Shown piece after piece: positions 21,101-24,100 of a stretch of 64,000 nt of DNA. Source of the stretch: Apostichopus japonicus (taxonomy: Eukaryota; Echinodermata; Holothuroidea; Aspidochirotida; Stichopodidae); contig NC_092564.1 of assembly GCF_037975245.1 (NCBI RefSeq), positions 8,653,984 to 8,717,983 on the forward strand, given 5' to 3'. The translations under genes and the position numbers were made by a program. The notes under the pieces are model-generated. The model was given only the letters and a program-made list of their open reading frames with translations. It was not told the origin of the DNA and did no database searches. Each line of letters begins with the position of its first letter. The first letter of the stretch is position 1.

Positions 21101-24100
21101 TTCTTAAATTTTCAAATCACACTTGACCAGTGGTGTTAATAGAAGGGACCTCACAGTGTAATTGATTGCAGCACTTTTGCACAACAACCATCGAAGCAAT
21201 TGAACTCTGCATTCATACACATAGACGATCAAGATGTTGGTGGGAATCATGAAGCTGTGATAAGCTGCAAAGCAAGCAAGGGCAATTTAATAAATCTTGC
21301 TATAAGCTTGTACTCACCCCATGAAGGGCATTCCCCTAATATTATCCACCACAATATTCAATATAACACCACCATGCTTACCCATCCAGGCTTTGAACAC
21401 TATGAGAGAAATGAAAACAAAATTAAATGAAAAATATTGTAATAATACTTTACCCCATGATTGGCATCCCGCGAAAATTATCAGCTATAATGTTGACGAT
21501 AGCACCACGATTCTTCTCCATCCAGGTTCTGTAGGCTATATATTGAGGAGAAGATATCCTTATTTTGACTTCCACACCCCCTACCTTAAGCAGGCTACCC
21601 CCACCCCCCCCCCCCTGCATTGAGTTGGCATGTGACCGAGGCCCGTAATAAATTGCACATCATCATGTACTTTGCTATCCTTACTACTATTCATGTAAGA
21701 GTGAGACATTTGGTAACTACTGTACTACTGAGGGTGCCCCTGTACTTTGTGATTTTATTAGCTGATTAATCTACTACAGTGAAATTTGTTTCAAGAAGAA
21801 AATTAATCAAATGAATTATTATTTCACTTGGAAACCCTTTGACCGTGACGTTTAATTTCCCTCGTTGCTGTTTTGATTTTTGTGTGCTGCAGTCACATCA
21901 CCTCTTCAGGTTACATCTCATCTTTGGAAATAAGAAACTTGGCACTTTCATTGGAAGCAAATATTCTTTGAAGCTCATCATATATATATGAAGTACAGAC
22001 CCCAGCATAAGCAATGACAGTGTGAATCTCACTACAGACAACAAAGGCCTTCTGTAACTATATGACAAATGGTATGAACATGCAGATGAAATGATTCAGA
22101 GAATTCAGAGAAAGAAAGCAACTATACAAAAAATTACAATTAACAACAAAAAAATTCTGCTTGTTTCTCAGTATTTTCTATTCAAAATTGAAACATTTTG
22201 AAAACTCTCATCTGCATGTGACTGACAGACATGTCTTCAACAATGTTTTCAAGTGTGTCACCTTGCAAACAAACTTATGTCAGCTATTAACAAACAGCGA
22301 TACTGGTCAGTAACAGGATTTAAACATTTTTGAGACATATTTTTAAATGGTCACAAACCTTCCCTACTACACAGGTAGGTTCCTGTCAAGTTTGTTTCGA
22401 TCACTGCATTCCACCCTTTGAGAGTAATATCTTCAATGTGAGCAGGAAATTGACCTCCACCATTATTCACCAAATAGTCTATCCGGCCATACTTTTCGAT
22501 GGTGTAATCCATTAACGACTTAACCTGCGTGACAAAGAGAAAAGGAAATATATGGTCAAATAGAAATAAGTAAGAATAAGAATTGTTACAACTAAGGTGG
22601 CCAGATGTCTGGTATTAGGCGGGACAGTCCAGCAATTCATTGCACTGTACTCCATCCGACATGACCTCTCCCCCCACCCCACCCAAAAAAATGTTTATCC
22701 AGCATTAAAGGTTTTGAAGCCAAAGTTTAACAATCAATATTTGATAAAATATGAAATCCTACAGCTTGTGCATTTCTTAAACCTCTAGCTGTCCATGTGC
22801 TCACCAAGTTAGGACAAAATGCATCAAATTTCATGTTGTAATTTCCCCCTCATGGGATACCTTCTCTCTGTGATATTCGAGTGGGGTGAGGGGGAAGGGG
22901 GTGGGGGGACAGGTCGGTTTCAGTAACTCAGCTGCTGGAGCTTTTGAGAATAAAGCCTATAGATATTCATTTTGGCATTTAATAATCTTTAACAAAATCT
23001 GGCTTAGAATGTGATGCTTTGACTCATAATTTCTCATGCCTGGATGAAAGGAAAACCTGTTCCCTTGTTGGATGTTCTTACACTATAGCTGTAAAATTAT
23101 ATCTACATACATATATTCCTATTATAAAAGGGGGGGGGGTTACATAAAATCTGACTTAGACTGTCTGTACAGATTCTTCATTGACTCCCACCACCACCAC
23201 CCCCCACCCACCACCCCCCCCCCCAATCTTGGACAACTTGTCTAGTGTCTAACATACTAAATGCCAATGTATTCTGCTAAGCTTAATGTCTTTGTTACAT
23301 TGTATATAAGATAAATCTGACTAAGACTGTGTGTATAACTGCTTTAATATCTCTTCCCTAGTTGTACAACCTGTCTTCCCTTTCTGACATATCTCTTATA
23401 TACATGTACCTCTTCCTCCTTTCTGATGTTACATTGCATATAAGATAAATCTGACTTTGAATGTCTGTACGGATTCTGCTTCATCTCCTCTCCTGACTTG
23501 GACAACCTGTCTATCTTTCTGGAAGCTATAACAACCTTACAACCTGAAACAAAAAAAGAACCAAAAAAATCAGCATCTGAGTAAAAGTAATGACAGACTG
23601 TACTTTGCAGTATTATAAGTCTAGCTGGGTTACATATGGCAGGCTACAGCTTAAAGAAAGTACAAAGTTAGATTAGGAACATGTCCTGTTAATTTATTTA
23701 CAGTGTTTATTTCTATTAGATTGAGCCATGTTTGTCACCTGTGTTTTTCACTGGTAGTTGACAAACTATTCAGCAGATGCCTCATGTTTGAATGTAAGTC
23801 TGTTGGAATTGAAATATCCATAAAATGGACTCAGATACTAAGGATACATGTGCAGTTTGCCCAGTATGTTAATGGCCCTGGTTTTCAGGGAATAACTTAT
23901 GCACCATCACATAGCAAATTACTAGATTTATTTAATTGCAATGTGGAAAGATGTGTATGATGATGTGTAACTGTTCTTGTACACAGGAACCATGTAGTAT
24001 TTTATAAGAGGCAACTTTCAGATCCCAGGAAACAAAAGTATTTCCCTGGAGATGAAAGTAAGGGTTTTGAGCAGTGTGTGTAGGCAATTATATACTTCTG

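Follow-up and report, generated by a model that had tools for sequence, protein, structure and literature searches.

A tandem duplicate of exon 4 in a PECR-like gene of the sea cucumber Apostichopus japonicus as a candidate mutually exclusive exon pair

In the sea cucumber Apostichopus japonicus, a PECR-like gene on the minus strand of the window (the whole 64,000-nt stretch of DNA analysed) carries two adjacent versions of its fourth exon, here called 4a and 4b. The two probably arose when exon 4 was duplicated in tandem long ago, in a gene for which no paralogue was detected, and were then maintained as alternatives, exactly one of which would be used per transcript. The duplicated pair is confirmed as real at the level of the sequence. 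Both exons are 82 nt long, run from phase 1 to phase 2, are bounded by GT-AG splice sites and sit between exons 3 and 5 with 54 nt separating them. They align without a gap, both open, with 58 of 82 nucleotides and 15 of 28 residues identical, and blastn recovers their similarity within the gene region at E 4.7e-8. Coordinates, phases, sites and identity, all recomputed, agree with the first-pass annotation, which had described two adjacent intact 82-nt exons of phase 1 to 2 with 15 identities in 28. It had also held that use of both exons or of neither would break the frame, and this is borne out: only the 3-4a-5 and 3-4b-5 paths remain open, whereas stops are met in 3-4a-4b-5, in 3-5 and upon retention of the 54-nt intron, which places an in-frame TAA at the donor, directly after 4a. 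Several features by which mutually exclusive exons are recognised are found here, namely adjacency, length, phase, splice sites, peptide similarity and a frame broken by joint use or skipping. From these we infer mutually exclusive use, a reading strengthened by the selection tests, the decayed sister copies, the failure to find a paralogue and the intact state of the gene.

The exon model (Table 1) is based on reading of the sequence and on homology. Its coding path can be followed end to end on the minus strand, giving a CDS of 912 nt with either 4a or 4b, zero internal stops and a product of 303 aa with either exon. This product ends in SKL, which we take to be a PTS1-type peroxisomal targeting signal. 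The inter-exon introns of the gene are GT-AG, and two of them hold long TA-rich simple repeats, at 15553-15628 (intron 7-8) and 16812-16929 (intron 6-7). Scans of the window against Rfam (at gathering thresholds) and for tRNAs gave no match.

Table 1. Positions within the window of the exons of the PECR-like gene, the intron between 4a and 4b, and the additional partial copies
Feature	Positions	Strand	Basis or comparison
Exon 1, coding part from start codon (MSATVTSRV...ELLYLG)	25438..25567	-	aligned with human PECR 1yxm
Exon 2	23410..23543	-	gene model
Exon 2, decayed partial copy: 14 substitutions, 5 indel events, homologous-frame stop	23293..23386	-	repeat alignment
Exon 2, short partial copy: 31 nt, 3 substitutions, zero indels	23147..23177	-	repeat alignment
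Exon 3, phase 1 at end	22359..22524	-	gene model
Exon 4a, 82 nt, 28 residues	21454..21535	-	gene model and pair comparison
4a/4b intron, 54 nt, GT-AG	21400..21453	-	sequence reading
Exon 4b, 82 nt, 28 residues	21318..21399	-	gene model and pair comparison
Exon 5	19492..19588	-	gene model
Exon 5 and donor, decayed partial copy: 2 substitutions, one 22-nt gap, 5' end missing	19172..19255	-	repeat alignment
Exon 5, decayed partial copy: 10 substitutions, 2 indel events	18922..18991	-	repeat alignment
Intron downstream of exon 5, copy	18858-18699	-	86% to 19463-19299
Exon 5, decayed partial copy: 10 substitutions, 2 indel events	18377..18442	-	repeat alignment
Exon 6	17597..17701	-	gene model
Exon 7	16519..16633	-	gene model
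Exon 8 to stop codon, ...SAPKSKL	15035..15117	-	gene model

Both forms of the product match the SDR domains PF13561 and PF00106, and a classical SDR domain is present; in NCBIfam, none of the 25 matches listed per protein passed the cut-off of its family. The top match among solved structures is human PECR (1yxm), the peroxisomal trans-2-enoyl-CoA reductase, with residues 10-283 aligned at 300.8 bits (E 1e-88) for the 4a form and 304.6 bits (E 7e-90) for the 4b form. The second-ranked solved relative of both forms is AtuG (6lln), a bacterial dehydrogenase of citronellol catabolism, which scores lower (224 against 301 bits for PECR with the 4a form) and shares the motif AD..GMP.MGHSGAAR. The residue aligned with Tyr179 of human PECR, presumably its catalytic residue, is a Glu encoded in the constitutive exon 5, as it also is in AtuG. 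Because Glu replaces the residue aligned with Tyr179, the gene should be read as PECR-like, its chemistry being left unclaimed, and the mechanism of the enzyme may differ from that of mammalian PECR. The earlier label of a peroxisomal PECR stands as regards the best solved match and the C-terminal SKL, and gives way to the looser name on account of this Glu. Further differences from human PECR are the duplicated exon 4 and, within it, DN-RGMP-MG where the human protein has PT-AGFP-AV.

The 54-nt intron offers a physical reason for exclusivity. Measured from the 4a donor, predicted branch-point sites of the yUnAy type fall at 26, 31, 42 and 51 nt; the third and fourth of them leave just 12 and 3 nt before the acceptor, and passages in two papers place the steric limit between donor and branch point at about 50 nt (PMC5740500, PMC7969005). 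The intron thus seems too short for a plausible branch point to lie 50 nt away from the 4a donor, which makes steric exclusion combined with frame disruption the likely mechanism; the earlier claim that the gap is probably too short for efficient removal withstands this comparison. A steric bar of this sort is one of several that are known, and not every mutually exclusive pair requires it. U1 on the 4a donor and U2 on the 4b branch point would be unable to assemble together over 54 nt, blocking the joining of 4a to 4b, and double inclusion, skipping or intron retention would break the frame, so that the message would be destroyed or its product truncated. A single exon, 4a or 4b, would then enter each transcript. 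The other introns of the gene measure 823-1,894 nt, and a passage on the Apostichopus japonicus genome gives a mean intron of 1,286 bp (PMC10344927). Fifteen myosin introns of the same genome, inferred from adjacent domain matches among 70 matches, are at least 241 nt long, a rough control in that very short introns tend to be read through and so missed and some of the matches contain stops.

As to which exon would be chosen, the pyrimidine content of the acceptor tract is higher in 4b (0.85) than in 4a (0.65), the latter value being shared by exons 6 and 8. A run of 12 G stands at 21615-21604 on the minus strand, 68 nt upstream of 4a, and is a possible splicing-control or structure-forming element. 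To treat either the richer tract of 4b or this run as a regulatory handle is speculation. With regard to competing RNA structures of the selector/docking type, a minus-strand blastn comparison of 27000-13500 with itself, a method that misses short pairings, found no self-complementary pairing at E 0.001.

Both copies look maintained, judging from the pattern of their differences. The changes between them are mostly conservative, as had been claimed from inspection: their BLOSUM62 sum is 93, whereas 24 random substitutions placed on either copy yield about 55 on average (200,000 trials each; p 0.0008 and 0.0010). Applied to 27 codons, a codon-model test of dN/dS = 1 has a likelihood ratio of 10.2, for which parametric bootstrapping with 2,000 replicates and kappa set to 2 puts p at 0.002. 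Neutrality tests are weak at 28 codons. A test based on identity only is not significant, with a probability of about 0.13 for at least 15 identities, about 0.57 for the absence of a stop and about 0.08 for both, and for the conserved columns kept from one copy to the other the probability under neutrality is about 0.07.

Comparison with relatives outside the genome concerns the same 28 positions. Ten of these columns are at least 90% conserved among 80 bacterial relatives, and 4a keeps nine and 4b eight of the ten; 54 of the relatives are nearer to 4a, 18 nearer to 4b and 8 tied, although this set is the best 80 of at least 579 ranked with the 4a form and is biased toward 4a. Exon 4a lacks a Gly present in 77 of the 80, and 4b alters a Val present in 79 and an Ala present in 76. 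Agreement with human PECR extends to 11 of the 28 residues for 4a and 12 for 4b, and with AtuG to 13 and 14, respectively. The PF13561 score is nearly unchanged by the swap (170.6 versus 167.9 bits), which is therefore tolerated by the family model.

Counting methods (NG86 and LWL85) give a dN of 0.28 and a dS of 0.82-0.90 for 4a against 4b. When dS was estimated freely by maximum likelihood it reached the limit allowed, so the pair can be called old but is left undated. The divergence of the two exons (15 of 28 residues identical) is about that of exon 3 from human PECR (27 of 54). No likeness is seen in the flanks (p ~0.5), the alignment breaking off no more than 4 nt from the exon edges; such confinement to the exons also makes the pair look old.

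Exon 4 is one of several duplicated parts, and the gene is a case of repeated local duplication. Partial copies of exon 5, together with a duplicate of the intron sequence that follows it, all lie within intron 5-6, and those of exon 2 lie within intron 2-3. Copy scans scored 62 for exon 2 and 56 for exon 5, against shuffle maxima of 48 and 38, while a search of 26500-14500 with 30 shuffles per exon found no third copy of exon 4 above the shuffles. The duplication of exon 5 retains intron similarity (86% over 166 nt), and its copy nearest to the exon is young, with few substitutions, though it has a 22-nt gap. These copies serve as an internal control for what happens to duplicates in this gene. 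Per aligned base, each of the five has undergone fewer substitutions than the 4a/4b pair (24 in 88), yet four of the five contain indels and have lost their frames, the exception being the 31-nt copy. Indels number 0 per 24 substitutions in 4a/4b; the seven remaining local repeat alignments, one of them wholly intron, together have 16 indel events for 72 substitutions (Fisher p 0.02), and removal of the one copy-to-copy alignment leaves 13 indel events per 55 substitutions (p 0.02). As controls the decayed copies are imperfect, being partial and perhaps useless from birth, and with one alignment wholly intronic. The most diverged duplicate is nonetheless the one that remains intact, as expected if selection preserves both exons.

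The pair is also singular within the genome searched, which measures 671.6 Mb (671,581,487 bases in 35 contigs). A protein search with either form as query recovers the other copy 54 nt away, at E 7.7e-4 and 6.6e-4, and the likeness of the two therefore goes beyond chance. As DNA the pair matches itself alone, and each exon query has one protein match. Matches outside the gene were no better than E 0.229 and 0.178 in whole-genome protein searches in which the best candidates were scored. Since only best candidates are scored, the result is sound though less than conclusive evidence against a paralogue. Two other origins were considered for the duplicate. An assembly artefact is unlikely, given an identity of 71%, far below that of merged haplotypes, and the single occurrence in the genome. 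Derivation of 4b from a paralogue by gene conversion finds no donor among the best candidates, none outside the gene being better than E 0.178.

Other explanations of the pair differ chiefly in how many of its copies they take to be working. Only one exon might be used, the other being an old, silent or near-silent duplicate whose decay is pending. The further exon copies that the gene gained and that died, the weaker acceptor tract of 4a and the non-significant identity-only test would all fit such a history, which we nevertheless consider unlikely: the pair exceeds the five decayed copies in substitutions per site and still has no indel or stop, its splice sites are intact and its changes conservative, and most family-conserved residues are kept in both copies. 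A quite improbable alternative is that the second exon serves mainly as a switch to unproductive mRNA, lowering the level of the enzyme instead of providing a second one. All three non-exclusive outcomes do run into stops, with retention giving a TAA right behind 4a, but a mere poison exon would not need 28 conservative, family-like codons in both copies, and the joining of 4a to 4b that it would draw upon is sterically unlikely. Least credible of all is the inclusion of both exons together, or their service in two transcripts with different ends, for which adjacency is the one point in favour; both together break the frame, and each alone joins exons 3 and 5 in frame to give the full 303-aa enzyme.

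Under the preferred reading, exon 4 would have been duplicated in tandem long ago and both copies maintained as alternative exons, yielding two 303-aa products that differ at 13 of the 28 residues of one segment. In the SDR fold this segment presumably takes in the last part of helix E, strand 5 and the loop leading to helix F, next to the nicotinamide and the substrate. The core D-N-x-R-G-M-P-x-M-G is constant between 4a and 4b, and hydrophobic size, Arg/Gly and Glu/Gly vary around the strand. Because the differences sit in a segment that in SDR enzymes lies near the active site, tuning of activity and not its abolition would be expected, and the pattern suits a swap that adjusts substrate fit or stability without loss of function. 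The sequence shows how the gene is built, how the reading frame behaves, how short the intron is, that the pair is under constraint and that family residues are kept; the splicing itself, its regulation and any catalytic difference between the products are inferred. The overall interpretation of the first-pass annotation, that the cell can exchange this segment and so make two reductases of different substrate preference or tissue use, is in this sense partly supported. A bolder scenario, which we regard as tentative and rather doubtful, is that the gene makes two enzymes by an exon swap in the strand and loop beside the active site, for example for straight-chain and for branched, phytol-type isoprenoid acyl-CoAs in keeping with an algal diet, and is a hot spot of exon duplication in which selection has kept this pair alone. 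The division between phytol-type and straight-chain substrates is a guess.

Mutually exclusive tandem exons are established as a kind in animals. Passages in the literature describe exons 4a/4b of OGDH (PMC7969005), a human survey of such exons (PMC5740500), criteria for their prediction with alpha-tropomyosin cited as a case (PMC3228551) and tandem exon duplication in review (PMC9013439). The present pair resembles known cases in its adjacent homologous internal exons of equal length and phase, in a short intron that brings donor and branch point too close together, and in a length that is not a multiple of 3 as a second safeguard. It differs in belonging to a peroxisomal SDR gene, in the extreme shortness of a whole intron of 54 nt and in being known from sequence alone. 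Another human survey describes most mutually exclusive exon events as ancient and most of their changes as conservative (PMC9741552), and in both age and conservative change 4a/4b agrees with it.

A PECR-like case appears to be new within the open-licence literature searched. No report of PECR with mutually exclusive or duplicated exons was found in the open-licence papers searched, nor any that pairs PECR with sea cucumber. The word PECR is absent from the main texts of the two human surveys (PMC5740500, PMC9741552), and in the relevant passages of some open-licence papers containing both PECR and 'mutually exclusive' it occurs in gene lists only. An annotated isoform of this gene may exist unremarked. 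Should transcripts confirm the predicted use, a single gene would yield two variant forms of a lipid enzyme at the level of the exon, paralogues being the commoner route. With the exchange limited to a short stretch close to where the active site is expected, the two forms would be a clean natural experiment on how enzymes of the PECR/DECR group come by their chain or branch preference. The decayed copies of exons 2 and 5 beside the surviving pair also allow dying and kept duplicates to be contrasted in one gene.

A separate observation concerns the assembly in which the genome searches were made. One of its contigs (C29) carries COX1-like pieces at 14745-16086 and 30842-31219, and the ends of the two copies lie 16,097 bases apart. 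The genome includes a separate mitochondrial contig of 16,099 bp. Of five genetic codes compared on the COX1 of that contig (tables 2, 5, 9, 13 and 14), the one that suits the motifs of COX1 takes AAA as Asn and ATA as Ile, which is table 9 (echinoderms and flatworms), with table 14 sharing both assignments. Because the spacing of the C29 copies is so close to the mitochondrial length, C29 may be a tandem mitochondrial concatemer retained as a scaffold.
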